Below, piece by piece: positions 15,462-28,962 of a stretch of DNA of 64,000 nt (the first letter of the stretch is position 1; the number at the start of each line of letters is the position of its first letter). A program made the translations under genes and the position numbers. This stretch comes from Actinomycetes bacterium. Its GTDB lineage: Bacteria > Actinomycetota > Thermoleophilia > BMS3ABIN01. Below the pieces are notes generated by a model. It searched no databases and was not told where the DNA came from. It saw only the letters and a program-made list of their open reading frames with translations. The stretch lies in contig JAJYLW010000004.1 of assembly GCA_021787475.1 (NCBI GenBank), positions 1 to 64,000 of the forward strand, read 5' to 3'.

Positions 15462-15752
15462 TTACCACGATGCCGTTTTGTGCTCTTCCACCAGCCCGAC
15501 AAAGCCGGTACAATCGACTTCCTTCATGCCGTCGATAAGCTGGTCAACACCGCGCATGGCCAGGTCTTCCTTAAGGACATAAATGTCGTGATCCGCCAGT
15601 ATGCCTTTCATCTTCTCCTCCAGCGAAGTCCCTGCCATGGCGCCGTAGATGGCGTCCTCGAACAAAAGAATTGGCGATCCCTTGGCGGCATATTTCAGAC
15701 AATCATCAAGCGACTTTGACTCAAACGGCGATTCATTTATCAGGTGAAGCAT
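15462..15752 (-). CDS. dsrH: Sulfur relay protein DsrH (TusB family)
   Basis: DsrH is the small subunit of the DsrE2F2H2 sulfurtransferase complex, which passes sulfur to DsrC. The 96-residue protein starts MLHLINESPF as in TusB/DsrH and has Cys18 in SLDDCLKYA, equivalent to the conserved DsrH cysteine. The start is supported by GGAGAGGAGG six bases upstream. It is the last gene of dsrEFH, 16 bases after dsrF, and ends convergently with the BPL-N gene. The AT-rich 3' spacer includes the MITE-like terminator. Confidence 0.9.
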   Translation of the reverse strand: MLHLINESPFESKSLDDCLKYAAKGSPILLFEDAIYGAMAGTSLEEKMKGILADHDIYVLKEDLAMRGVDQLIDGMKEVDCTGFVGLVEEHKTASW

Positions 15753-15768
15753 GTTCCTCCTCTCCGGA

Positions 15769-16155
15769 CTAGAACATGAAGAAATTCTTCTGTTCCTCCA
15801 TCATTTTTTCGACGGCCTCCGCCTCGACCACTTCGGGTTCGACAACCAGGTCCTCCAGCTTCAGGCCGCGCTCCTCCATCGAAGTCCGGTCGATAAAGAC
15901 CTTTTCGATGTCATAGGCTTCCATCGCCCTGAAGGTGGGTGAAAAGTTCTTGATGCCGGTGGCGGTTGTGTCCATTCCCTTCTTGATGGCGTAGACGCCG
16001 TCGTCAACAAACAGGACGCTGATGTCCTGGTCGTATGCTGCCATGATGAGGACGTTTTCCAGACCCTCGAAAGCATAGATGGAGCCGTAAGGAGCGGTGC
16101 GGAAAACAATCATCAGCTTGGCCATCTCTTCATTTTCTTCCATTTCTTCATTCAT
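15769..16155 (-). CDS. dsrF: Sulfur relay protein DsrF (TusC family)
   Basis: DsrF is the structural subunit of the DsrEFH hexamer. The 128-residue protein has the DsrE-like fold: MIVFRTAPYGSIYAFEGLENVLIMAAYDQDISVLFVDDGVYAI. It lacks a catalytic cysteine, as expected of DsrF. The N-terminus carries an unusual acidic run (NEEMEENEEM) before the core and the C-terminus an acidic tail ending in FFMF. GGGAG lies nine bases before the ATG. It lies between dsrE and dsrH with 16-base spacers. Confidence 0.9.
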   Translation of the reverse strand: MNEEMEENEEMAKLMIVFRTAPYGSIYAFEGLENVLIMAAYDQDISVLFVDDGVYAIKKGMDTTATGIKNFSPTFRAMEAYDIEKVFIDRTSMEERGLKLEDLVVEPEVVEAEAVEKMMEEQKNFFMF

Positions 16156-16171
16156 GCGGTCTCACTCCCTT

Positions 16172-16531
16172 CTAGGCTCTGAACTCGACAACGCGGTCAG
16201 CTTCAATGGCCAGCTCAGTCAGCATCCCCAGGCCGCCAATCTTGAAGCCGTCCGCGGTGACAGTGTCATTGATGCCACGCCGTTTGGCGGCAGCCACGCA
16301 GACGATAAACTCGATGCCGTTTTCTGTCGCCAGCGCCGACCATTGCTTCTGGATGTGGCGGTCGTCCGCCTGCGGCTCCATCAGCTTAGTCGAGTTGAGC
16401 ACGCCGTCCTGATAAAAGAAAACGCGCAGGATCTCGTGGCCCTTTGCCAGCGCCGCCTTGGTGAACTGGTAGGCGGAATCGGATGCCTCGTGCTGGTAGG
16501 GGCCTTCAGTAATCATAATTCCGAACTTCAA
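16172..16531 (-). CDS. dsrE: Sulfurtransferase DsrE (TusD family)
   Basis: DsrE carries the active-site cysteine of the DsrEFH complex. The 119-residue protein starts KFGIMITEGPYQHEASDSAYQF and has Cys78 in IEFIVCVAAAKRRGI, the same residue number as the catalytic Cys78 of Allochromatium DsrE (from memory). The start is TTG with AAGGAG about nine bases upstream. It is the first gene of dsrEFH and has its own promoter about 110 bases upstream. DsrEFH is classically found in organisms running Dsr in the oxidative direction. Confidence 0.92.
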   Translation of the reverse strand: MKFGIMITEGPYQHEASDSAYQFTKAALAKGHEILRVFFYQDGVLNSTKLMEPQADDRHIQKQWSALATENGIEFIVCVAAAKRRGINDTVTADGFKIGGLGMLTELAIEADRVVEFRA

Positions 16532-16638
16532 AGCGCTTCACTCCTTCCTGAAAAGATTGCCGGGTGGTAACGAGGTGGCAACGTCCTCACTGCATGAAAA
16601 GAGATCGGGAGAAACACCAGCCTCACACCCCGCGCGCT

Positions 16639-16667
16639 ATCGTATAATGGGGCTGAGTTTCTGTCAA
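16639..16667 (-). promoter_or_regulatory. Sigma-70-type promoter of dsrEFH
   Basis: On the minus strand a perfect -35 TTGACA (16662-16667), a 17-base spacer and -10 TACGAT (16639-16644) lie about 100 bases upstream of dsrE. This separates dsrEFH transcription from the dsrA1B1L1 module. Confidence 0.75.
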
Positions 16668-16688
16668 ATGCCAGATGGTAGGCAGGCT

Positions 16689-16776
16689 GGTAGGCACAGG
16701 CTTTTAGCCTGTGCAGCGGAGGGCGTGTGCATAGATTAACCCTCCCAAAGGCAGGCTGAAGCCTGCCGTCTACCGG
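16689..16776 (+). repeat. REP/BIME-type doublet, left copy
   Basis: Two hairpin-forming palindromes: one with GCACAGGCTTTTAGCCTGTG, the other with GGCAGGCTGAAGCCTGCC followed by GTCTACC. They lie between the end of dsrL1 and the dsrE promoter. A partial third unit (TCTGCCGTCTACC) follows at 16780-16794. The pair is repeated in reverse orientation at 20941-21026. Confidence 0.8.
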
Positions 16777-16811
16777 AAAGTCTGCCGTCTACCGAGGTCC
16801 AGCGGCTGCCT

Positions 16812-18512
16812 TCACATCCCCATCTGAATATATCCGCAGGGGCAGCAGTCGGCGCAGACATGGCAGCCGATGCATTTTGTGTAGTCGGTGAACATGATTC
16901 TGCCCACCGGCCGGGACAGGTCGCGGCTGATGGCGTGCGTCGGGCAATAAACCCGGCAGCGGTCACAGGTGAAGCAAAGGCCGCAACTCATGCAGCGGTC
17001 TGTCTCGGAAACGGCATCTTCTGCCGGCAGCGGCAGGTTGACCTCGCGGCTGCCGGTGCGCTCACTTACGGGGAGGGACTTCTCCCGGTGGCGGGGGGCC
17101 GGATCGTAATAATCCAGTTGGAGGCTTTCGGGGCCGATGGGCCGGCGCGCGTACGGAAGCACATATTCATGCCCCTTGAGATAAGCGTCAATGGCGCGGG
17201 CAGCCCGGCGGCCGGCGCCCACCGCCTCGGTGGCGACTCCAGGCGCCACCATGTCTCCTCCGGCGAAGACTCCCTTGAGCGAGGTTGCGCCTGCCGGATT
17301 TGCCTCCACCCGGCCTGAGCTTGCCGCCAGGGCGTCCATCCCGGCAAGATCGGCCTCCTGGCCGATGGCGGGAATGACGGTGTCGGCCTGAAGTTCGAAC
17401 TCCGACCCTTCGATGGGAAGCGGCCGGCGGCGGCCGGAAGCGTCCGCCGCCCCCAGTTGCATGCGAATGAAAGTCATCACCAGACGGCGCTCCGCACCCC
17501 CGCCGGCAGCGGTTATCTTCTCCGGGGCAACCAGAAAAGTGATCCTGACGCCCTCCTCAATGGCCCCGTCGATCTCGGACGTCAGCGCCGGCATCTCCGC
17601 GCGCGTGCGCCGGTAGACCAGCTCCACGCTTGAGCCCAGCCGCAGGCAGGCGCGGGCGACATCGACGGCGGAGTTGCCGCCGCCGACCACAAGCGCGTGC
17701 GAGCCGATGTCAACCTTTTCACCATTGTTCAGACATTTAAGCAAATTAATCGCCGTCATCACCCCGGGCAGATCCTCGCCCTCGATATTCATGGCGGTGC
17801 TGCGGTGCAGCCCGGTAGCGATATAAACCGCGTTGAATTCGTCCCGGAGCCAGCCCAGCGACACGTATGAGCCTACACGCGCATTTAACTTCAAATCAAT
17901 GTCAAGGTCAAAGATCCTGTCCAGCTCGGCTTTGAGGATATTTTTGGGCAGGCGGTAATCAGGAATGCCAAACCTGAGCATGCCGCCCGGTTCGGCGGCG
18001 GCTTCGAAGACGGTCACCCGGTAGCCCCTTCTGGCGAGCTGGTAGGCGCAGGAAAGGCCGGAGGGGCCGGAGCCGACCACGGCAACTTTCTGTTTTTTTT
18101 TCTCATCCGTGATCAGGCGGGGCTTCAGGCCCCGCTCGATGCCGTGGTCGCCGATGTGCCGCTCCAGGTTGTGAATCGCCAGCGGCTCGTCCTTGAAGCC
18201 GCGGTTGCAGGCATCCTCACAGGGATGCGGGCAGACGCGCCCGTGCACCGCCGGGAACGGGTTGTGGTCGGTGAGGACGTACCAGGCATTGTCGAGCGAC
18301 TCCTCAAGGCTGCGGCCAAAAAGGCTGCGCTGGGCGATCTGGGTGAGGTAGCCGCGGGCGTCCTCGCTGCTGGGGCAGGCATTCTTGCAGGGCGGCTCGC
18401 GGCGAACGTAGACAGCGCAATCGAGGTTGTCGTTGTCAATGACGGGGTAGGCCTCGGAGGGGACCGGAGACTTGACCCTGACGATACGCTGAGGCTTGGT
18501 GCTCACGCTCAT
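16812..18512 (-). CDS. dsrL: DsrL-type NAD(P)H:acceptor iron-sulfur flavoprotein (copy 1)
   Basis: DsrL transfers electrons between NAD(P)H and DsrAB. The 566-residue protein has an N-terminal cysteine block (Cys42, 46, 94, 98, 102) that binds [4Fe-4S] as in the glutamate-synthase small subunit. An FAD motif VAVVGSGPSGLSCA follows at about 143-156, then an NAD(P) motif VVGGGNSAVDVARA near 280. A C-terminal two-cluster ferredoxin domain has CMSCGLCFTCDRC and CIGCHVCADCCPC. The start is supported by GGGAG seven bases upstream. It follows dsrB1 by 21 bases. A generic GltD-like oxidoreductase is the alternative, but the C-terminal ferredoxin and the position favour DsrL. Confidence 0.87.
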   Translation of the reverse strand: MSVSTKPQRIVRVKSPVPSEAYPVIDNDNLDCAVYVRREPPCKNACPSSEDARGYLTQIAQRSLFGRSLEESLDNAWYVLTDHNPFPAVHGRVCPHPCEDACNRGFKDEPLAIHNLERHIGDHGIERGLKPRLITDEKKKQKVAVVGSGPSGLSCAYQLARRGYRVTVFEAAAEPGGMLRFGIPDYRLPKNILKAELDRIFDLDIDLKLNARVGSYVSLGWLRDEFNAVYIATGLHRSTAMNIEGEDLPGVMTAINLLKCLNNGEKVDIGSHALVVGGGNSAVDVARACLRLGSSVELVYRRTRAEMPALTSEIDGAIEEGVRITFLVAPEKITAAGGGAERRLVMTFIRMQLGAADASGRRRPLPIEGSEFELQADTVIPAIGQEADLAGMDALAASSGRVEANPAGATSLKGVFAGGDMVAPGVATEAVGAGRRAARAIDAYLKGHEYVLPYARRPIGPESLQLDYYDPAPRHREKSLPVSERTGSREVNLPLPAEDAVSETDRCMSCGLCFTCDRCRVYCPTHAISRDLSRPVGRIMFTDYTKCIGCHVCADCCPCGYIQMGM

Positions 18513-18533
18513 AACGCCGCTCCCGGTCTGCCG

Positions 18534-19616
18534 CTACAGCCGCACGTGCGCCGAGGTATTGAAGGTGGTGCGGGCCCAGCGGTAGCTGTCGATGTGATAC
18601 TTGGTAAACTCAAATCCGGTCTCGGCGAAGAAATTCTTCCAGCCGATCCGCTCGATCCATTCGCCGACGCGCTCGTACGGATTCGCTCCGGCCTGGTAGG
18701 CTTTCAGGATGCGGCGGACAGCGTCGGCCACCTCGGGCCAGCGGGGCGGGTTGTTGGGCAGGCCCCAGGTGGCCAGCTTCATGAACGAGGGGCCGCCGCG
18801 GGTGCTGGCCGACTTGCCTCCCACCCAAATGGAAAGAGTGTCGGTCTCGCCGTCGCGGATCTCCAGCGCCGGGCACTGGGCATGGCAGGCGCCGCAGTAC
18901 ATGCACTTCTCCTCGATCACTTCCACGGTATTGCGGCCATCCAGCCGGTCCGGCCTGATCGCCAGCACCGGGCAGATGCTGATCACCTTGGGCAACTCGC
19001 AGAGCTTTGTATTGTTATGATCGATTACAGGCGGATGATGGTGCTGCAGATTGATGGCAATGTCGGTCTGACCGCCGCAGTTGATCGTGCAGCATGAAGT
19101 TGACACTTTGACGCGCTGGGGAAAATTCTCGTGCGTGAACTCTTCGTAGAACGCGTCCATCAGCGACTTGACGACGCCGGCGGCGTCGGTGCCTGGCAGG
19201 TTGCAGTGCAGCCAGCCCTGCGTATGGATGATGTTGTGAAACGAGTGGCCGGTGCCGCCGACGGGGAACCCCAGCACCCGTCCGATCTCGTCGATCAGCG
19301 GCTGGATGTCTTCTTCTTTCTCCAGCTGGAACTCGATGTTGTTGCGGCTGGTGAAGCGGAGCTTCCCCTGGCAAAATTTGTCGGCAATATCACAGGCACG
19401 GCGAAGCAGCGGCGCGCTCATCATCCGGGGCGAGCCGGCGCGGACGGTGTAGAGCGATTCGCCGCTCTCCGATTCGTGCACGAACACCCCGGGCCTGATG
19501 TCGCGGTGGTATTTCCAGCGGCCGTAGTTGCGCTCCATCGCCGGATGCAGGTATTTCCGGTAATCGGGGGCGCCGTTGTCGCGCGGCGCCAGTTGTTTCT
19601 TTCCTTTTCCGTCCAA
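18534..19616 (-). CDS. dsrB: Dissimilatory sulfite reductase, beta subunit (copy 1)
   Basis: DsrB forms the alpha2beta2 sulfite reductase with DsrA and carries the functional siroheme site. The 360-residue protein has the HTQGWLHCNLPGTDAAG segment, the cluster-ligating TSCCTINCGG, and an inserted ferredoxin domain with CP...CMYCGACHAQCP. The C-terminal block reads [18 protein letters not shown]...FTKYHIDSYR. It differs clearly from copy 2 ([28 protein letters not shown]). From memory it looks more like the Archaeoglobus/Moorella kind of sequence, which is an impression only. The TTG start lies two bases after the dsrA1 stop. Confidence 0.94.
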   Translation of the reverse strand: MDGKGKKQLAPRDNGAPDYRKYLHPAMERNYGRWKYHRDIRPGVFVHESESGESLYTVRAGSPRMMSAPLLRRACDIADKFCQGKLRFTSRNNIEFQLEKEEDIQPLIDEIGRVLGFPVGGTGHSFHNIIHTQGWLHCNLPGTDAAGVVKSLMDAFYEEFTHENFPQRVKVSTSCCTINCGGQTDIAINLQHHHPPVIDHNNTKLCELPKVISICPVLAIRPDRLDGRNTVEVIEEKCMYCGACHAQCPALEIRDGETDTLSIWVGGKSASTRGGPSFMKLATWGLPNNPPRWPEVADAVRRILKAYQAGANPYERVGEWIERIGWKNFFAETGFEFTKYHIDSYRWARTTFNTSAHVRL

Positions 19617-19618
19617 GT

Positions 19619-20890
19619 CTACTTCCCTTCGAAATCCTCTTCCCGGTCGGGCTCATGCTCAAGGACATTGGCCGTCTTGTGCGGTTCGCCTTCCAGGCGC
19701 GGCGCCGCGTACTCTTCGAACTTTATGTAGGGATTGCTGCGCGGATTTGTCACCATCTGCGGGTCAGGCACGATGCCGGCGCCGTCGAGGAAGGCGCCCA
19801 GGCCGATGCGGTCGATGAACTCGCCCACGCGCTCATGCTCGTTGCCGTGCTCGCCCCAAAAATCCCAGATGCGCTCGACAATGGCCGAGAATTCCTCGTA
19901 ATCCCGGTCGCTTTCCAGCTTCTGAAACGGCACCAGCACCGAGGCAAGCATCTCGCCGCTGCGGACGGTGCGCTTGCCGCCGATCAACATGGTGACGCCG
20001 CGGTCGCGGCCGGGCGCCAGCGCCAGATGCATCACATTTATGCAGTGCATGCAACGGACGCAATTGCGGTTGTCAATCTCGATGCGGTCGCCTGACAGAT
20101 GGATGCAGTGGGTGGGGCAGCGGCTGGTGACGTTCCGGACCGCCCAGTCGGGCCCGTTTTCTTTCACGAACTGGGCCACTGCTTCCTGGTCAATCTGGAT
20201 GTCGTCACGCCAGGTGCCGATGACGGGCATGTCGGAGCGGCTGACGGAGTTGGCGCAGTCATTGCCGCAGCCGGACAGTTTGAACTTGTACTTGTAGGGA
20301 AACTCGGGCCGGTGCAGATAGCCAATATACTTATCTGTCAGATATTTGGTCAATTTAAGCGTGTCGTAACAGGCCATCTCGCAGCGCGCCGGGCCGATGC
20401 AGCAGGGAATCGTTCGCATGCCGTTGCCGGAGCCGCCCAGGTCCCAGCCCTTTTCCATCAGCGCCTCGGAGACTTCCATCAGCTTCTCGTTGTCGTAGCC
20501 GAGCATAAGGATGTCGCCCGTCATCCCGTGCAGCTGCATGATGCCGGCGCCGTAATCTTCACTTAGGTCGCACAGTTGCCTCAGCGCGTCGGTGGAGTAG
20601 ACAAAGCCGGGCGGCTCGATCACGCGGATGGTGTGAAACTGAGCCACCTGGGGAAACCTCTCCCCCAGGTCGGAGTAACGGGCAATGACGCCGCCGCCAT
20701 AGCCAGGCACATTGATGGCGGTGCCGCGCCAGTAATCCCAGTGGTCCTCGTACGACTGCTCCAGCTGCTTTAGCAGCTGTCCCACCTGCGGCCGCCGCTT
20801 TGCCTGCTCTTTTAAGTCCTTGACGAAGCTGGGCCACGGCCCTTCCTCAAGCTGATCCAGCAGCGGCAATTTCAGGTCATCGTCCGGCAC
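19619..20890 (-). CDS. dsrA: Dissimilatory sulfite reductase, alpha subunit (copy 1)
   Basis: This is the alpha subunit of the siroheme sulfite reductase. With the GTG at 20890 (AAGGAG five bases upstream) it has 423 residues. Motifs are the GYGGGVIARYSD segment, HGMTGDILMLG, the siroheme-[4Fe-4S] ligands in CCIGPARCEMAC and SGCGNDCANS, and the ferredoxin insert CPTHC...CVRCMHC. The C-terminus is about 25 residues longer than copy 2, with an acidic tail. It heads the copy-1 module A1-B1-L1. The module starts after a REP doublet and a strong hairpin, so it may be transcribed apart from copy 2; I see no convincing promoter for it. Confidence 0.94.
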   Translation of the reverse strand: MPDDDLKLPLLDQLEEGPWPSFVKDLKEQAKRRPQVGQLLKQLEQSYEDHWDYWRGTAINVPGYGGGVIARYSDLGERFPQVAQFHTIRVIEPPGFVYSTDALRQLCDLSEDYGAGIMQLHGMTGDILMLGYDNEKLMEVSEALMEKGWDLGGSGNGMRTIPCCIGPARCEMACYDTLKLTKYLTDKYIGYLHRPEFPYKYKFKLSGCGNDCANSVSRSDMPVIGTWRDDIQIDQEAVAQFVKENGPDWAVRNVTSRCPTHCIHLSGDRIEIDNRNCVRCMHCINVMHLALAPGRDRGVTMLIGGKRTVRSGEMLASVLVPFQKLESDRDYEEFSAIVERIWDFWGEHGNEHERVGEFIDRIGLGAFLDGAGIVPDPQMVTNPRSNPYIKFEEYAAPRLEGEPHKTANVLEHEPDREEDFEGK

Positions 20891-20940
20891 AAATGCTCCT
20901 TTTTGCAATCGATGGCAAGCTTTCGCCCGATGGCAGCCCT

Positions 20941-21026
20941 GGTAGACGGCAGGCTTTCAGCCTGCCGTTGGACGCTCCATTTAAGCACCGGCCCCTCTGC
21001 ACAGGCTAAAAGCCTGTGCCTACCGG
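20941..21026 (-). repeat. REP/BIME-type doublet, right copy (inverted)
   Basis: The same two palindromes as at 16689-16776 occur here in reverse order and orientation: GGTAGACGGCAGGCTTTCAG...GCC and GCACAGGCTAAAAGCCTGTG followed by CCTACCGG. The spacer between the palindromes is slightly different. It lies 50 bases upstream of dsrA1, so the inverted pair brackets the copy-1 dsr module. Confidence 0.8.
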
Positions 21027-21127
21027 CCACGGACAAATTGAATGATCGTCTTAATTTATCCACACCGGGGAGATTTGAAACAGGACCCCGTTGACTGCGC
21101 ATGCGAAAAGCCTGGCTGGCACACAAC

Positions 21128-21151
21128 GGGGCCGCCCGCAAGGGCGGCCCC
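21128..21151. terminator. Strong GC hairpin after dsrL2
   Basis: GGGGCCGCCC, loop GCAA, and its perfect 10-bp complement lie about 30 bases past the dsrL2 stop. There is no T-run on the minus-strand exit side, so it may terminate weakly, stabilise the 3' end, or be a repeat. It is the natural boundary between the copy-2 and copy-1 dsr modules. Confidence 0.5.
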
Positions 21152-21180
21152 GCAAAAACAGCACATATATGGCAAAGAAA

Positions 21181-22875
21181 CTAGCTCATGTCAATGTACG
21201 CGCAGGGGCACTCTTCGGCGCACTTGGCGCAGCCCACGCATGTGTCGAGGTAGAACTTGTAGAACTCATGATCGTGGTGGCGGTTTTCCGGAGTCACTTT
21301 CTTGATGGCGTTGTAGGAGCAGAAGGAATAGCAGTTGCCGCAGTCAAAGCACATGCCGCAGCTCATGCAGCGCTTGGTCTCCTCCAGCGCCACCTCCGCC
21401 TGCAGCGTCGAGACGATCTCATTGAAGTTCGTTTTGCGCTCATCGCCCGGCTGCATGACCTTCTGGGCCCGGTCGGCGGGAGAATAATAGCTGGCCGCCA
21501 TCTTGTCGAACTTGACCACCGGCGGCGGATACTCTTTCGGCATCTCCTCGCCGCGGATGTAATAATCAATCGCTTCGGCCGCCTTGCGGCCCAGGCCGAT
21601 CGCCTCGGTGACGGTTCCCAGCCGGTTGGTGACGTCGCCGCCGGCGTAGACGCCTTTCTCCGCCGTCTGGCCAGTGGCCTCATCCACGGTTATCCAGCCT
21701 TTCTCGTCCTTGAAGGCCTCGATGCCGCCGAACCGGGGGCCCTGGCCGATGGCGGGCAGCACCATGTCGGCGTCGATGACAAACTCTGACCCCTCAACTG
21801 GCACCGGCCGGCGGCGGCCGCTGTCGTCGGGCTCGCCCAGCTCCATCTTTTGCACTTTCAGGCCGGTTACCTTGCCGCCTTCGCGGATTACCTCCACCGG
21901 AGCCGCCAGGAACTCGATATGAATCCCCTCCGCCTCAGTGTCCTCGATCTCCTCGACCTCGGCCGGCATCTCGTCCCGGGTGCGGCGGTAAACGATCTGT
22001 GGCTCGGCCCCCATCCTCAGGGAGACGCGCGCCGCGTCAACGGCGCTGTTGCCGCCGCCGATAATCAGGACCTTCTTGCCCTTGACGTCAACGTCCTCGC
22101 CCGAATTGACCTTGTTCAGGAACTCGACGGCGTTCATGACGCCCTCGCCTTCCTCGCCGGGAATGCCCAGGTTCCAGCCCTCATGGGCGCCGATGCCCAG
22201 GAAGACGGCGTCGTAGTCCTTCTTGATGTCCTCAATCGAGACGTCCGCGCCAATGCGGGTCTCGTACCTGATCTCAACGCCCAGCGCCTCCAGCGCCGCC
22301 ACTTCGGCGTCAAGGATATCTTCCGGCAGCCGGTAGCTGGGGATGCCGTAGCGGAGCATCCCGCCGGATTTGGGGAACGCCTCAAAAATAGTGACCGGAT
22401 AGCCGCGCCTGGCCAGCTGGAAAGCGCATGACAGGCCCGCCGGACCAGAGCCGACGACGGCCACCCTCTCGCTGTGGCTGTCATCCCCCAGCTTCTCGTG
22501 GGCCAGCTTGTTGCTGATGCCAAAATCGCCGATGAAGCGCTCGATCTGGTTGATCGAGACCGCCTCATCCTTGTACTGCCGGTTGCAGTCAGTCTCGCAG
22601 AAATGCGGGCATACCCGGCCCAGCACCGCCGGCAGCGGGTTTGTCTCGGTCAGCAACCGCCAGGCCTTCTCGGCCGCCGCCTCCATCGCGAGGCCGTTGT
22701 CATCGCCCTGGGCGATGGTCGTCAGAAAGCCGCGGATGTCGTTGCTGCTCGGACATGCATTCTGGCAGGGCGGAGTCTTGGCGACGTAGCTCGGCCTGAG
22801 GTGTGAGCCCTCGCGGCCGCGGCTGTAGGTTGCAGCGCCAATCTCCCTTTTTCTTGTTTTCAATACTACCGCCAT
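21181..22875 (-). CDS. dsrL: DsrL-type NAD(P)H:acceptor iron-sulfur flavoprotein (copy 2)
   Basis: This is the second DsrL-like electron carrier, 564 residues from the ATG at 22875 (AAAGGAG six bases upstream). The layout matches copy 1: N-terminal cysteines (PCQNACPSS, RVCPHFCETDC), FAD motif VAVVGSGPAGLSCAFQLA, NAD(P) motif IIGGGNSAVDAARVSL, and GVYAGGDVTNRLGTVTEA. A two-cluster ferredoxin tail follows (CMSCGMCFDCGNC, CVGCAKCAEECPC). It lies 93 bases downstream of dsrD, so this module reads A2-B2-D-L2. The two DsrL proteins are clearly divergent paralogs, not a recent duplication. DsrL beside dsrD is the arrangement reported for DsrL-2-type proteins. Confidence 0.87.
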   Translation of the reverse strand: MAVVLKTRKREIGAATYSRGREGSHLRPSYVAKTPPCQNACPSSNDIRGFLTTIAQGDDNGLAMEAAAEKAWRLLTETNPLPAVLGRVCPHFCETDCNRQYKDEAVSINQIERFIGDFGISNKLAHEKLGDDSHSERVAVVGSGPAGLSCAFQLARRGYPVTIFEAFPKSGGMLRYGIPSYRLPEDILDAEVAALEALGVEIRYETRIGADVSIEDIKKDYDAVFLGIGAHEGWNLGIPGEEGEGVMNAVEFLNKVNSGEDVDVKGKKVLIIGGGNSAVDAARVSLRMGAEPQIVYRRTRDEMPAEVEEIEDTEAEGIHIEFLAAPVEVIREGGKVTGLKVQKMELGEPDDSGRRRPVPVEGSEFVIDADMVLPAIGQGPRFGGIEAFKDEKGWITVDEATGQTAEKGVYAGGDVTNRLGTVTEAIGLGRKAAEAIDYYIRGEEMPKEYPPPVVKFDKMAASYYSPADRAQKVMQPGDERKTNFNEIVSTLQAEVALEETKRCMSCGMCFDCGNCYSFCSYNAIKKVTPENRHHDHEFYKFYLDTCVGCAKCAEECPCAYIDMS

Positions 22876-22968
22876 GTGTGTCTCCTTTGGATCCCAAGCC
22901 CTGCGCACAGCGCCGGCCTTCAGGCCGGCCGCCGCGGGCCTCAGAGCCGGGCGTCGCAGGCGCCCGGA

Positions 22969-23214
22969 TTACTTGTTCTCTGCAGCTTCCGAGTGCGGCA
23001 GCTCAATCGAGCTTCCACCAAAATAACCGTAGACGCAACGGCCGGAATCAATCAGCATCCTGATCGCAGCCTTGGCGTCTGCGCGGGAGACCTCATCGCC
23101 GTACTTGGCCACCATCGCCTTGGTGAGATCGCCGCCTTTCAGCTTCTTGACGCCGGCGCTCTCCTTGATGATCTCATACATCTCGTCCGCCAGCTGCTCC
23201 ACCGGAATTGCCAT
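22969..23214 (-). CDS. dsrD: DsrD, sulfite reductase activator
   Basis: DsrD is a small winged-helix protein that stimulates DsrAB and is a marker of sulfate/sulfite reducers. The 81-residue protein has the pattern of helix, KGGDLTKAMVAKYGDEVSRADAKAAIRMLIDSGR, then a beta wing ending YFGGSSIELP, comparable with the SGSTTMYGL wing of Desulfovibrio DsrD. The start is firm: AGGAGG eight bases before the ATG. It lies 19 bases after dsrB2. Its presence argues that copy-2 DsrAB works in the reductive direction. Confidence 0.85.
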   Translation of the reverse strand: MAIPVEQLADEMYEIIKESAGVKKLKGGDLTKAMVAKYGDEVSRADAKAAIRMLIDSGRCVYGYFGGSSIELPHSEAAENK

Positions 23215-23233
23215 TTAAAGAACCTCCTCGTTC

Positions 23234-24310
23234 CTAATACCTGTTGTGTAGAGACCTTCTGTAGGTCGTGCCGGCATGCCGGAAGTCATCGAGGTGATAC
23301 TTGGTGAACTCGATCCCGGTCAGATCAAAGAACTTCGGCCAGCCAATGCGGTTGATCCACTCGCCCACGCGCTCGTAGGGCTTGGCATTCGCGGCGTAGA
23401 TCTCGACAATGTTCTTGACTGCGCCGGTAACCTCCGGCCACCGTGGCGGATTGTTCGGCAGGTAGGGAATTGCCAGCTTCGTGAACATCGGCTCGCTTCT
23501 GGCGTTGCAGATCTTGCCGCCGACCCAGATGGAGACGCCGTCGTTCAGGGGGTCGGCCAGCGGCATGGCCGGGCAGACCGTGTAACAGTTGCCGCAGTAC
23601 ATGCACTTGTCCTCGTCCACCTTGACCGTCGTCTTGCCCTCGATGGAAGTCGGCCGGATGGCGTTGTTGGGGCAGGACGCCACAGTAGTGGGAATCTCAC
23701 ACAGGTTGGGTAGTGTCGCATTGTCGATCTTGGGTGGAGTCCGGTGGACGCCCAGGATGGCGATATCGGAGGCGTGCACGGCGCCGCACATGTTCAGGCA
23801 GCAGGCCACGGCAATGCGCAGCTTGGCCGGCAGCTTCTGGGAGGTGAAGTACTCCGCCAACTCGTCCATCACCGACTTGACCAGGCCCGAGGCGTCGGTG
23901 GCCGCCGAGTGGCAGTGCACCCAGCCCTGGGTGTGGACGATGTTGGAGATGGCGTTGTTGGTGCCGCCGACAAGCAACCCCAGTTCACTGATTTCCTTCT
24001 TGAGCGGCTCGATGTTGTCCTTGTTGGCCAGCAGAAACTCGACATTGTTGCGGCTGGTGAACCGCAGGTAGCCGTCGGCATACTTGTCCGCCAGGTCCAG
24101 GATATTGTTGAGGAAATTGATGGACACCAGCCGCGGCGATGACACCCTGACGGTGTAAAGGTCGCCGGCAGGGCCGTGATGCATCAGCACGCCGGGGGCC
24201 AGCGTCTCGTGGTACTCCCACTTGCCGTAGTTCTCCTTCACCAGCGGATGCAGGAATTTCTCATAATGTGGCGGGCCTATATCTGTTTTTCTTTCAACTT
24301 CGGTTGCCAT
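23234..24310 (-). CDS. dsrB: Dissimilatory sulfite reductase, beta subunit (copy 2)
   Basis: The 358-residue beta subunit (ATG at 24310 with GGAGG six bases upstream) has [17 protein letters not shown], the siroheme/cluster block [19 protein letters not shown], and the ferredoxin insert CP...[16 protein letters not shown]. The C-terminus reads [40 protein letters not shown] is the peptide targeted by the classic DSR4R dsrB primer, so this copy resembles the Desulfovibrio-type sequence, unlike copy 1 (CGACHA). It lies between dsrA2 and dsrD. Confidence 0.95.
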
Positions 24311-24391
24311 TACATCCCTCCTGTAAAGTCTGAAGTTCAAACCATGGCCGCCCGCGCCGGACCGGCGCCGGGCCGCCTCAATCCCGGACTG

Positions 24392-25591
24392 TTATTTCTC
24401 GCCTTCACCTTCTTCCGCATAATACTCTTCGTAGAAGACGTAGGGGTTGTCACGCGGAGCCTTGATCATCTGCGGCAGCGGCTTCTCGCCGATGCCTTCC
24501 AGGAATGTCGCCAGGCTGACGCGCTCGATGAACTCGCCGATGCGCTCACGGTTGGTGCCGTGCTCATCCCAAAATTCCCAGATCCTCTCAATGAGGTCGT
24601 GCACTTCCTCGAAAGGTTCCTCGAGCTTCATAAAAGGAATAATGACTGACCCGAACAGCGCCCCCTCGACAATCGGGGCCTTGGCGCCCAGGGTAATGGC
24701 GGCGCCGCGCTCCTTGCCGGGACTGAGGGCCTTCGGCATCACGTTGATGCAGTGCATGCACTTGACGCAGTTGCTGTTGTCGATCTTGATCTCATTGCCG
24801 TCCAGCTCGATGCAGCCGGTGGGGCAGTTCTCCACCACCAGACCCTGGACGTCGAGGCCGCTATCGACGTACTCGGCAACGGCATCCGGCTTCACCTGGA
24901 TGTCGTCCTTCCAAATGCCGATGATGCCCATGTCCGACCGGGCGATGGCGGCGGTGCAGTCATTGGGGCAACCGGACATCTTGATCTTGTACTTGTAGTT
25001 GAACATGGGGCGGTGCAATTCATCCTGGTAGGCATGAGTCAGGTTGTACGCCAGGCTGAGGGTATCGTAGCAGGCGTACTCGCAGCGCCCCGGCCCGACG
25101 CAGCAGCTCGGGGTTCTTAAGTCGGAGCCGGAACCGCCCAGGTCCCAGCCTTTCTCAGTCAGGGCCCGGAAGGTGGGTTCCAGCTCCTCGGTGCGCGTTC
25201 CCAGCAACACCAGGTCGCCGGTGGAGCCGTGCACATTCAGGAGGCCCGAGCCGTGCTCCTCCCAGATGTTCAGGATCTCCCGCAGGGCATCGGCGGTATA
25301 GAACCATCCCGACGTCTGATTGATGCGCAGGGTGTGGAAATGCGAGACGCCGGGAAATTCCTCCGGCAAGGCGGAGTAGCGCCCGATGACGCCGCCGCCA
25401 TAACCCATTACGCCGACTAGGCCGCCATGCTTCCAGTAGCCGCGTTTGTCTTCGTAAGACTTCTCCAGTTGCCGCAGGAGGTCCTTGGCCATCTCCTTCT
25501 TTCCCGCCAGGCTCTTGATGTCCTTAACGAAGCTGGGCCAGGGCCCCTTTTCCAGCTCGTCGAGGAGTGGGGTTTTTAAATCGTCTGCCAT
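24392..25591 (-). CDS. dsrA: Dissimilatory sulfite reductase, alpha subunit (copy 2)
   Basis: This alpha subunit has 399 residues from the ATG at 25591, which follows AAGGAGG. It has [37 protein letters not shown], the siroheme-[4Fe-4S] cysteines in [12 protein letters not shown] and SGCPNDC, and the ferredoxin insert CPTGC...CVKCMHC. The N-terminal [19 protein letters not shown] is shared with copy 1, whereas the core motifs differ (SGCGNDCANS and HGMTGD there). It follows the dsrJ-like gene by about 140 bases and opens the A2-B2-D-L2 set. Confidence 0.95.
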
Positions 25592-25733
25592 TTGTCCTCC
25601 TTTTTGTTTGGTCCGCAACAGCATCCGGTCATTTTGCCGCCGGGTGCAGAGTCTACGGGGCTGGCACGAGTTTTGACTTCGGAGCGCTTGACTGATTGCG
25701 ACCGGCTACAGCGAATCCGCCGCTCAATCCTTC

Positions 25734-26081
25734 CTAACTAATCGACGGATTGGCCCCCACGTAACCGTGACATTTATCGCAGAAATTCGCCCTGTCGGTG
25801 TGGCACAATAAACAATTCTTCGGAGTCAGCCCCTCTTGAATAAAAGCATCAAAATGGTTCATGTGGTCAAACATGTCCGGCAGCGGCGGGGTCTGCCGGT
25901 ACTGCGCCGACGCCGCGACGCTGCAGTCAAGCGCCTGCGGCTGATTGTACTGAGCCAGCGCGGCGGCGCAGCCTGGCCCTCCCGAGCCCTGAAACATACG
26001 CCCGCCGGAAGCGTTAATAATGAACGGAAGCATCAGGATAACCAGAAAAATAATGAAAGCAACCGCCGCCCTCGTTTTCAT
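25734..26081 (-). CDS. dsrJ: DsrJ-like cytochrome c, truncated to two hemes
   Basis: DsrJ is the periplasmic triheme cytochrome of DsrMKJOP. This 115-residue protein has an N-terminal membrane anchor/signal (about residues 5-25), DMFDHMNHFDAFIQEGLTP, then two heme sites, Cys90-x2-Cys93-His94 and Cys101-x2-Cys104-His105. It stops at GYVGANPSIS. In family members, as I recall them, a third C-x2-CH follows directly after that CDKCHxYxGVxP stretch. Here it is missing and no such motif is found beyond the stop. Cys38 and Cys53 could include the unusual His/Cys heme ligand. The ATG overlaps the dsrK stop (ATGA). dsrO and dsrP are absent. Confidence 0.8.
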   Translation of the reverse strand: MKTRAAVAFIIFLVILMLPFIINASGGRMFQGSGGPGCAAALAQYNQPQALDCSVAASAQYRQTPPLPDMFDHMNHFDAFIQEGLTPKNCLLCHTDRANFCDKCHGYVGANPSIS

Positions 26082-27640
26082 TCTTTCGCCCCCAGTTCTA
26101 TCGCCCTACCCACCAGTTGGTGGACGCCACCGGCTACTTCCATAGGAACGCCGTACTTGGGCATGATTTTCGTGAACTGAGCCTTGCAGATGGCGCAGAT
26201 CAGCGCCATAAAGTTGACGCCGTCACTCTCCATCACCGCGTGCAGCGTTTGCATTCTGGGCATGGCGCCGGCGATGCGGGTCTCCATGATCTCGTCGGTA
26301 AGCAGGCCGCCGCCGCCGCCGCAGCAGAACGTCTTTTCCATGGTAGTGGCGGGGTCCATCTCCACGTACTTGTTGCAGGACGCCTTGATCAGCTCCCGCG
26401 GGATCGTGAACTGGCCGCCGGGGCGGCTGCCCATCCGCGAGGCGCGGGCGACGTTGCAGGAGTCGTGGAATGTCACCGTGAACTCGTCGTTGGCCTCCTT
26501 GTTCAGCTTGATGGCCCCCCGCTTGACCAGATCGAGGGTATATTCACAGATATGCTGTGGCGCCGGATAGTTTGGATCCAGTGAATCAAAGGGGCCGATG
26601 AGGGTGTTCCAGAACGAGTATGCAATTCTCCAGGCATGGCCGCATTCGCCCACGATCAGCCGCTTGGGCTTGATCTGCTCGATGGCGTTGCGGATGCGCA
26701 TCGCCGCCTTTTGCATCAGGGTGTAATTGCCGACAAACATGCCGAAGTTTCCGGCCTCAGAGGCCAGCGAACTCATCGTCCAGCTGACGCCCGCCTGGTG
26801 AAAGACCTTGGCGTAGCCGATCAGGGACTCCACATGAGGGCTGGCGAAGAAGTCGGCAGACGGCGTCACCAGCAGGATGTCCGCCCCCTCGACGTCCAGG
26901 GGCAGTTTCACCGGCACCCCGTCCTCCTCCTCGATATCCTCCTCGATTGACTCGAGCGTATTGGTCAGGGCCTTGGGATTCATGCCGAGGTTGTTGCCGA
27001 TTTCCAGCAGCTTGCCGATTGTCATGTCGCAATATTTCTGCCCCAGGCCGATGGAGTCCATGATCTCCCGGGCCGCCATCGAAATCTCGGCCGTATCGAT
27101 GCCGTAGGGGCAGAACACCGAGCAGCGGCGGCACTGCGAGCACTGGTGAAAATAGGCGTACCAGTCGCCCAGCAGCTTTAGGTCTAGCTTGCGGGCGCCG
27201 GCCAGCTTGCCAAACAGCTTTCCTTCCGTGGTGAAGTATTTCTTGTAGACGCGCCGGAGCAGCTCCGCCCGGGCGACCGGCATGTTGTTCGGGTCGCCGG
27301 AGCCGAGGAAGAACTGGCACTTGTCCGTGCAGGAGCCGCAGCGGACGCAGATATCAAGGTAAACCTGGAGTGATTTGTACTTCTCCAGAAGTTCGCCCAG
27401 CCGCTTTACTGCCGCCTCTTCCCAGTTGTCAACGAGGGTGTCCGGGAAGCCGAGCGCCGTCATTATCTCGGGCTTGGCCGCGTGAGGTTTGGCCCCCGAA
27501 AGTTTTCCCTTGACGATTCGGCCCTCTTCGACGCGGGGAACATTGATCTCCCCGGTCAGCTCCGGTCCCTTGGCGTTCTTGTCTGTGTCTGCTTCTGTAA
27601 CTACGTCAAGCAGCGTTTTCTCAGCAGCTGGTTCCGCCAT
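26078..27640 (-). CDS. dsrK: DsrK, HdrD-like iron-sulfur subunit of DsrMK
   Basis: DsrK reduces or oxidises the DsrC disulfide/trisulfide on the cytoplasmic face, using electrons from DsrM. The 520-residue protein has two [4Fe-4S] motifs (Cys98, 101, 104, 108 and Cys167, 170, 173, 177). Two CCG-type domains carry the noncubane cluster, seen as GECGHAWR, HDSCNVARASRMG and FCCGGGGGLLTDE. AAAGGAT lies about nine bases before the ATG. It is 60 bases downstream of dsrC and overlaps dsrJ by four bases. The length is usual for the family. Confidence 0.94.
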   Translation of the reverse strand: MAEPAAEKTLLDVVTEADTDKNAKGPELTGEINVPRVEEGRIVKGKLSGAKPHAAKPEIMTALGFPDTLVDNWEEAAVKRLGELLEKYKSLQVYLDICVRCGSCTDKCQFFLGSGDPNNMPVARAELLRRVYKKYFTTEGKLFGKLAGARKLDLKLLGDWYAYFHQCSQCRRCSVFCPYGIDTAEISMAAREIMDSIGLGQKYCDMTIGKLLEIGNNLGMNPKALTNTLESIEEDIEEEDGVPVKLPLDVEGADILLVTPSADFFASPHVESLIGYAKVFHQAGVSWTMSSLASEAGNFGMFVGNYTLMQKAAMRIRNAIEQIKPKRLIVGECGHAWRIAYSFWNTLIGPFDSLDPNYPAPQHICEYTLDLVKRGAIKLNKEANDEFTVTFHDSCNVARASRMGSRPGGQFTIPRELIKASCNKYVEMDPATTMEKTFCCGGGGGLLTDEIMETRIAGAMPRMQTLHAVMESDGVNFMALICAICKAQFTKIMPKYGVPMEVAGGVHQLVGRAIELGAKE

Positions 27641-27700: not shown

Positions 27701-28033
27701 CTAGACGCAGCCGGTCGGCTTCGGCAGGCCGGCGATCTTGCAGGCCTGGAGCGCCGGGCCGGCCGGATAAAGGTTGTACAGGTAAGCGCTATTGCCCTTT
27801 TCCGGGCCGAACATCTTCTTCATCTCCTTTATCAGGATCTTGATGGCCGGCGCGATGCTGTATTCCTTGTAGTAGGTCCTGAGAAAGTTGACGACCTCCC
27901 AGTGAGCGTCGGTCATCTCGACGCCTTCCTGCTCGGCGATGTAGGCGGCCACATCCTGGTTCCAGTCATCGAGGTTAATAAGGTAGCCATCGTCGTCAGT
28001 TTCATATGTCTTGCCGCTGAACTCGAAACTCAT
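27701..28033 (-). CDS. dsrC: DsrC sulfur carrier protein
   Basis: DsrC carries sulfite-derived sulfur as a trisulfide between DsrAB and DsrMK, and accepts sulfur from DsrEFH in oxidisers. The 110-residue protein has the complete C-terminal arm with CysB at 98 and CysA at 109 (C-KIAGLPKPTG-C-V), the exact x10 spacing of true DsrC rather than TusE. The helix WEVVNFLRTYYKEY is also typical. AAGGAGG lies about six bases upstream of the ATG. It lies between dsrM and dsrK, which is an unusual position. Confidence 0.97.
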   Translation of the reverse strand: MSFEFSGKTYETDDDGYLINLDDWNQDVAAYIAEQEGVEMTDAHWEVVNFLRTYYKEYSIAPAIKILIKEMKKMFGPEKGNSAYLYNLYPAGPALQACKIAGLPKPTGCV

Positions 28034-28140: not shown

Positions 28141-28962
28141 CTAGCCTTCGGCGGCAGGCTCCTGCACCGGCGCCGCCGCCGGAGCCTGCTGCTGTTGCAT
28201 TTCCAGCGCCGGCAGGGTGGCGGTGGGCCGCGTCTTTACCCACGGGGTCGCCCAGCGCTTCTCCCGGGGATTGTCAACCTGGTTGCGCGTCGGGCTGAAG
28301 AAAAGGCCGCCGGCGTGCATCAGCTTGCTGAACGGGAAGTAAATTAACAATATCAGCACGAGGCTGAAGTGGATCAGGAAGAGCTTGTTCGTGGGCACCG
28401 AGCCGATGTTGTTAAAGGTGACGAGCCCGGCAATAAAAGCTTTGACCTGGGGAAGATTCATCCTGATATGGCCGCCGTCCCAGAACCGGGAAAGCAGACC
28501 CGAGGACGCGACTGCCATCAGCAGCAGCAGCAGGGCGTAGTCGCTGGCGAGGGAAATATAAAGGTGCCTGTCAATTGCCACCCTCAAAATCAAAAGAAAA
28601 GTCAGCGCCCCCAGCAGAACGAAGCCGGAATAAAGATCGTAGGTTACGAGGGTGTTTAAGACAGAGGAAGTGGGAGCAATAATGAAGCGCAGGTGCTCAA
28701 CGAGAATGAAGAGAAGGCCGAGATGAAACAGATAGCCGCCAATCCAGAGGAGCTTGTTGCCCCGGAACAGGCTCTTGAAAAAAACCACTTCCTGAAACAT
28801 TCGCACCGGCACGCCGGCAGCGTGCACCGGTGCGGGCGTCTGTGGAATCCGGAGCGGCGCCGGGGTGAACGCATACTTCCAGATTTTTCCCAGGAATCCA
28901 ACAAGAAAGATCGCGAGCGCCAGATAGAAAAACAGCCCGAAAAACAATGTAAGACCGCTCAT
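28141..28962 (-). CDS. dsrM: DsrM, NarI-like membrane cytochrome b subunit
   Basis: DsrM takes electrons from menaquinol through b hemes and hands them to DsrK. The 273-residue protein has about six predicted membrane helices: LFFGLFFYLALAIFLVGFL at the start, the HLGLLFILVEHLRF segment, and HFSLVLILLIYFPFSKLMH, with paired histidines as heme ligand candidates. NPREKRW...PWVKTRP follows the last helix. The C-terminal tail is a low-complexity Pro/Ala/Gln stretch. It is at the short end of the family. It is the first gene after a two-promoter region and probably starts the dsrMCKJ-A2B2DL2 transcript. Confidence 0.88.
   Translation of the reverse strand: MSGLTLFFGLFFYLALAIFLVGFLGKIWKYAFTPAPLRIPQTPAPVHAAGVPVRMFQEVVFFKSLFRGNKLLWIGGYLFHLGLLFILVEHLRFIIAPTSSVLNTLVTYDLYSGFVLLGALTFLLILRVAIDRHLYISLASDYALLLLLMAVASSGLLSRFWDGGHIRMNLPQVKAFIAGLVTFNNIGSVPTNKLFLIHFSLVLILLIYFPFSKLMHAGGLFFSPTRNQVDNPREKRWATPWVKTRPTATLPALEMQQQQAPAAAPVQEPAAEG

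Follow-up and report, generated by a model that had tools for sequence, protein, structure and literature searches.

What does it mean for a dsr operon to carry a dsrJ that stops ahead of its third heme site and is followed directly by dsrA, in the place of dsrO and dsrP? The question is raised by the gene at 25734..26081 on the minus strand of the window, the 64-kb stretch of DNA analyzed here. Its product, a membrane-anchored c-type cytochrome of 115 amino acids, is assigned as a diheme variant of DsrJ based on the open reading frame, the NCBIfam model NF038038 and a profile-profile alignment. An N-terminal hydrophobic segment, likely a signal-anchor (residues 6-24; codons 26010..26066), gives a 19-residue Kyte-Doolittle mean of 2.78 starting at residues 5 and 6, and the AlphaFold2 model has a helix at residues 2-25 (mean pLDDT 66.6, pTM 0.28). 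It is followed by M70-x2-H73-M74 (25860..25874), which on the alignment are candidate distal heme ligands, by heme motif 1, C90-x2-C93-H94 (25800..25814), and by heme motif 2, C101-x2-C104-H105 (25767..25781). There is no CxxCH outside residues 90-94 and 101-105. The protein ends in GYVGANPSIS at a TAG stop codon (25734..25736), the position from which triheme DsrJs extend into the third CxxCH, and none of the three frames of the minus strand between 25760 and 25500 contains C-x(2-9)-CH. An earlier sequence-only reading had described only two heme motifs (Cys90/93 and Cys101/104), an NPSIS end where the family continues to a third C-x2-CH, and no third motif in nearby minus-strand frames; the CxxCH scan, the alignment with triheme DsrJs and the three-frame scan agree with it on each point.

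The operon around dsrJ is read on the minus strand in the order dsrM, dsrC, dsrK, dsrJ, dsrA-dsrB, dsrD-like, dsrL-like, second dsrA-dsrB, second dsrL-like and dsrEFH. DsrK (26078..27640) is recognized by NF045796 with 546 bits (cut-off 400), and its stop codon overlaps the dsrJ ATG by 4 bases; dsrC (27701..28033) matches TIGR03342 (161 bits) and PF04358. The gene at 28141..28962, coding for a NarI-like cytochrome b subunit, is assigned to dsrM. It scores 172 bits with NF038037, under the cut-off of 300, but passes that of Pfam Nitrate_red_gam (PF02665) and lies at the expected position in the operon, and the histidines at YLFH, VEHLRF, IHFS and LMHA are common to its aligned relatives. Directly after dsrJ, where dsrO-dsrP would stand, is the first copy of dsrA (24392..25624; TIGR02064, 556 bits), then the first dsrB (23234..24340; TIGR02066, 490 bits); the second dsrA-dsrB is at 18534-20908, all on the minus strand. 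The absence of dsrO and dsrP between dsrK and dsrA had been read correctly from the sequence, although the neighboring gene was taken for dsrA2 and is the first copy.

From 15462 to 25624 the window holds one cluster with two dsrAB sets, two dsrL-like genes, a dsrD-like ORF and dsrEFH. The dsrL-like and dsrD-like genes are presumed to be such from position. The first dsrL ORF matches a general NAD(P)-binding family in NCBIfam, and the dsrD-like ORF of 81 amino acids (22969-23214, minus strand), between dsrB and dsrL, has neither a Pfam match nor a meaningful NCBIfam match; it recurs in the operons of relatives and is probably a divergent DsrD. The two dsrAB copies of relatives have been described as reductive and oxidative type (PMC9326234).

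Between the dsrJ stop codon and the dsrA ORF there are about 110 bases, while dsrO and dsrP of relatives occupy about 2 kb. No DsrO- or DsrP-like ORF was found in the 64-kb window with reference DsrO and DsrP sequences (E 1e-10). The source genome (G000) is a 1.84-Mb assembly of 36 contigs and 98.71% complete, and a search of all of it with the NCBIfam DsrO and DsrP models found no ortholog of either gene, nor was dsrOP found there beside another dsrJ.

The same short form of DsrJ is found in relatives. The bacterial family was sampled with 19 genomes, and DsrJ was found in 17 of them at E 0.001; an 18th (G001) was recognized via its DsrK and DsrO and in a profile search, while neither DsrJ nor DsrK was found in G016 (88% complete). 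Diheme DsrJ is encoded in 12 of the 19 (G000, G002, G006, G008, G010-G015, G017 and G018) and a longer DsrJ in ten (G001, G003-G009, G017 and G018), so that G006, G008, G017 and G018 encode both. All 12 diheme copies end 10-15 residues past the second CxxCH and none has an internal stop; L039 lacks its last residues in alignments A1, A2 and A5, where its row was cut short, and its full end was read separately.

Three gene orders were seen. Long J lies in dsrM-C-K-J-O-P-A-B. Diheme J lies either in a stand-alone dsrM-K-J set without adjoining dsrAB, as in the four genomes with both forms, which carry a dsrMCKJOP operon as well, or inside the dsr operon as dsrM-C-K-J-A-B with OP gone, as in G015 and the six genomes belonging to the window's genus. 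The G015 operon is spread over two contigs, the G010 stretch begins within dsrK, and in G002 only J is visible, near a contig end. The 4-base dsrK-dsrJ overlap recurs, for example in L031, L032 and L033. Neither dsrO nor dsrP adjoins diheme J at any of the 12 loci in the stretch examined, whereas both are present at 9 of the 10 long-J loci of the family, the tenth (L045) ending 110 bases beyond J. In a genome-wide search with a family DsrO query, true DsrO (at least 274 bits) was found in 9 of the 19 genomes, all with long J, and in none of the eight having diheme J only, among which G002 is 69% complete.

The closest OP-linked DsrJs of the family share 32-37% identity with the window DsrJ. 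In OP-linked DsrJs of the family the third site is widened from C-x2-CH to C-x6-CH (L048:9923-10357, L047:5040-5459, L034, L038, L041, L045, L049 and L205) and once to C-x9-CH (L206:4323-4724). A widened site is also found in other records (L082, L085, L072 and L073), and both cysteines and the histidine are kept throughout. The C-x6-CH site may be an unusual heme c attachment, or the heme may be lost with a disulfide instead; a literature search found no paper on a CX6CH heme site.

The third CxxCH is not the only feature missing from the diheme form. One cysteine ahead of the M/H region is invariant in the aligned triheme DsrJs (39/39) and is also present in the aligned long-J copies of the family (7/7), but that position is free of cysteine in all 12 diheme copies, 10 of which lack any non-heme cysteine. 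In the window DsrJ, C38 and C53 lie within an insert absent from its two closest relatives, and the L043 copy has the extra cysteines C15 and C76. Most other copies read M-x3-H, diheme copies M-x2-H, and a stretch with an invariant arginine (R74 of alignment A4) is missing from the latter; the methionine is not universal, as L118 has neither M of the M/H region. The hemes of DsrJ include ligation types besides His/Cys. A His/Cys heme of DsrJ is on record in print (PMC9562282, PMC8833165) and was proposed in a paper on thiosulfate dehydrogenase as a possible center of sulfur chemistry (PMC9562282). The invariant upstream cysteine may well be the ligand of that heme, in which case one heme and one distal ligand were lost together.

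Because the relatives keep the same short form, it looks more like a stable alternative design than a broken gene. We consider it likely, if some way from certain, that the window encodes a stable and functional Dsr membrane complex without O and P, made up of DsrM, DsrK and a two-heme DsrJ. Counting against such a complex, both DsrJ and DsrM score below their NCBIfam cut-offs. In its favor, M70, H73, M74 and both CxxCH motifs are invariant in the alignment of all 12 diheme copies, which come from several genera. Judged from codon comparisons, close pairs of diheme dsrJ are under purifying selection: dN/dS is 0.24 for the window against both L031 and L032, and the three closest species span 0.21 to 0.24; it is 0.07 for L035/L036 and 0.16 for L033/L037, while distant pairs reach about 0.53 or are saturated. 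The dsrK value for the window against L032 is 0.07, and since the dsrJ values are higher, constraint on dsrJ is weaker than on dsrK.

That weaker constraint could also mean that DsrMK works alone and that the diheme DsrJ, functionless after the loss of dsrOP, is a structural cap or a relaxed, eroding remnant. DsrMK-only sets in other lineages, taken as the minimum of subunits needed (PMC10504309, PMC9326234), would fit this, as would the faster evolution of dsrJ relative to dsrK and a linker rich in indels. However, an eroding gene would not be expected to keep its heme motifs and M/H residues invariant in 12 of 12 copies across genera, to show a close-pair dN/dS of 0.07 to 0.24 without internal stops, or to have a recurring overlap with dsrK, and we regard a remnant as rather unlikely. 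The sequence-only reading had proposed that DsrJ is either decaying or part of a minimal DsrMKJ complex. The minimal complex is favored by the 12 of 19 genomes that keep the two-heme end without OP and by the dN/dS of about 0.24; decay, or a frameshift, finds no support in 12 separate assemblies in which the frame stays open to 10-15 residues past the second CxxCH.

The functions of DsrO and DsrP might instead be provided in trans, with DsrJ docking onto either an unrelated pair of Fe-S and NrfD proteins or a distinct periplasmic cytochrome whose genes lie elsewhere. Across the source genome the NCBIfam DsrO and DsrP models matched, along with weaker Fe-S proteins, a CISM-type Fe-S/NrfD pair beside a dodecaheme protein on contig C16 (94.7-97.8 kb), and in cable bacteria dsrTMKJ is found apart from distal dsrOP homologues (PMC10926707, PMC13047784). 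However, the C16 pair precedes a molybdopterin oxidoreductase gene of its own, its Fe-S protein reads from the ORF without a Tat signal, and the score class of that protein (108 to 129 bits) is represented in 17 of the 19 family genomes, including all nine with true DsrO. Because this class coexists with true DsrO in 9/9 genomes, the C16 Fe-S protein is not a moved DsrO and the pair has its own role; on these grounds the pair was rejected as a relocated DsrOP, and we think it quite improbable that the missing functions are supplied from elsewhere.

The C16 cluster as a whole (L056:9698-15191) encodes a dodecaheme cytochrome with 12 CxxCH, the Fe-S and NrfD-like proteins and the molybdopterin oxidoreductase, and a 7-heme ORF follows. 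On contig C8 of the same genome (L058:4643-6938), ORFs that look cytochrome b-like and Rieske-like from their sequences stand with a 7-CxxCH cytochrome having C-terminal hydrophobic stretches; these genes perhaps encode an unusual bc-type complex.

Could the gene belong to another family of electron carriers that merely adjoins dsrK? The window protein scores 35.8 bits with NF038038 against a cut-off of 100, and no Pfam family is above its own cut-off. However, a long-J relative joined to O and P is likewise under the NF038038 cut-off (50.1 bits), and an hhalign comparison of the 12-copy diheme profile with a 39-row triheme DsrJ profile gave a probability of 99.9 (E 4.9e-31), spanning from the anchor to the last residue ahead of the third site. 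The anchor, the FCDxCHxYVG block and the position after dsrK are all as in DsrJ, making membership in another family very improbable. By the measures that define triheme DsrJ, the window protein shows the homology, the N-terminal anchor and a gene adjoining dsrK, but has two CxxCH sites instead of three; it is thus a homolog of DsrJ without the features that define the triheme family. The model cut-offs used for annotation overlook this diheme form. Solved structures of DsrJ or DsrK were looked for by sequence and none was found; a match to 7aoi_XM (E 0.095) was taken as chance. An AlphaFold2 model of a triheme DsrJ (mean pLDDT 77.5, pTM 0.54) gave a best Foldseek match of only E 2.6. That an assembly or sequencing error removed the third heme is hardly conceivable, as 12 separate assemblies end alike and the motif does not reappear in any frame downstream in the window.

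For a wider sample, loci were collected with a pattern-based scan requiring CD[RKQ]CHxY[VA]G, and occurrence beyond Actinomycetota is judged from 80 of the 182 confirmed loci. Among these 80, 70 are triheme, 2 have C-x6-CH and 8 are diheme. The triheme loci come from many phyla and have dsrO in 69 cases and dsrP in 68, the misses (L101 and L120) being at contig ends; under a strict position test O is counted in 67, with L087 and L141 uncounted yet having O between J and P. Both C-x6-CH loci have O and P, and none of the 8 diheme loci has either. Since all 8 were already among the 12, they add no independent cases. A search of 399 genomes of the class with the diheme profile found DsrJ of either kind in this family only (18 genomes). 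A search of 396 genomes of the phylum used the DsrJ family model, which is nearly blind to diheme copies and missed G010-G013. In the class of G065, a mixed profile gave 11 matches in 36 genomes, and those read are triheme or C-x6-CH.

The diheme form probably has a single origin, or a few at most. Ten of the 11 DsrKs linked to diheme J form one group in a quick tree of 79 rows (SH-aLRT 98) as well as in careful trees of 28 rows (100/98) and 27 rows (94/98). The DsrK of the G015 copy (L044/L239) stands apart or is placed without firm support, and its DsrM lacks the typical insertion; a single origin of all 11 is neither established nor rejected (p-AU 0.19). With probably a single event, or few, to judge from, the data suggest but do not prove that heme, cysteine and OP were lost in a coupled way. 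The third site is already C-x6-CH or C-x9-CH in OP-linked relatives of the family, so its change may predate the loss of OP. The window DsrK is nearest to the OP-linked DsrK of its own family. In the 79-row tree, which contained no JOP-less DsrK, all these DsrKs group with those of Nitrospinales and a handful of others, well away from the larger group, which consists mostly of sulfate-reducer DsrKs, and this placement fits the published position of actinobacterial DsrO basal to the oxidative-type DsrO (PMC10504309).

The insertion in DsrM is short, reads RFWxGG and is found in diheme-J sets (window, 28141-28962; L033:11951; L037:7204; L040:3340; L043:1574) at a site occupied by KHF in the family's OP-linked DsrM. 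It was not seen in long-J DsrM or in the G015 DsrM, and is possibly a change at the quinone site or the DsrJ contact.

In the OP-free complex that we favor, DsrM would exchange electrons with menaquinone, taking or giving them, and connect through its b hemes to DsrK, which would reduce (or oxidize) cytoplasmic DsrC. DsrJ, as a small anchored diheme cytochrome, would sit on the outer face of DsrM as a side wire. We infer that these subunits form a complex, that DsrJ carries electrons and that the flow could run in either direction. With OP gone, DsrJ would have shed the parts that served it, namely the third heme at its C-terminus, the cysteine upstream, and the residues separating the ligand region from heme 1. 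The joint absence of OP, third heme and cysteine suggests, on the strength of one evolutionary event or a few, a role of that heme and that cysteine in serving DsrO, and they would then belong to the O/P-facing side of the protein. AprA and Sat are both encoded in the source genome (931.6 and 411.6 bits, respectively), which makes the sulfate pathway look complete. The relatives ACT_02 and ACT_11, whose isolate names match loci L075 and L081, are described as having dsrAB in two copies and as transcribing dsrTMK and dsrD (PMC9326234), and the dsr operon is therefore probably used in the window's genus.

It is possible, although doubtful, that the diheme DsrMKJ represents a natural removal of the O/P-facing half, in which the Cys-ligated heme, a companion of DsrOP, is not needed for DsrC turnover and the other two hemes link DsrM to periplasmic carriers as a wire of their own. 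If this is true, a cell of any of the four genomes with both versions could operate two Dsr complexes in its membrane, each with its own electron partners. What precisely the DsrJOP part does has been termed unclear (PMC10926707), and a lineage without the cysteine, the third heme and DsrOP but with DsrMK and two hemes makes that question testable. A literature search on DsrJ and DsrMKJ found no description of a diheme DsrJ, which is not proof of its absence in print. DsrMK-only, DsrMKJOP and the dsrTMKJ of cable bacteria being known already, a diheme DsrMKJ without O and P appears to be a new variant.

How the variant compares with known systems can be stated feature by feature. The DsrJ of Allochromatium vinosum, in work by Grein from 2010, is said to be the triheme DsrJ of DsrMKJOP. 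Like triheme DsrJ (NF038038), the window copy has an N-terminal anchor, the M/H region and heme motifs 1 and 2 with FCDxCHxYVG, directly after dsrK; unlike it, the window copy has M-x2-H rather than M-x3-H, a shorter stretch before heme 1, and neither the third CxxCH, the upstream cysteine nor dsrOP. Of the DsrMKJOP set, the source genome has a dsrK above its cut-off while dsrO and dsrP are missing. The OP-linked DsrJs of its own family share the two CxxCH motifs but, in dsrM-C-K-J-O-P-A-B operons, retain both the cysteine and a Cys...CysHis third site. In cable bacteria, as in the window, J adjoins MK without dsrOP alongside; unlike the source genome, cable bacteria have OP homologues elsewhere (PMC10926707, PMC13047784). 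The lack of DsrO and DsrP is shared with the DsrMK sets without JOP in archaea, Clostridia and some others (PMC10504309), but unlike these the window keeps a conserved J, in a reduced form.
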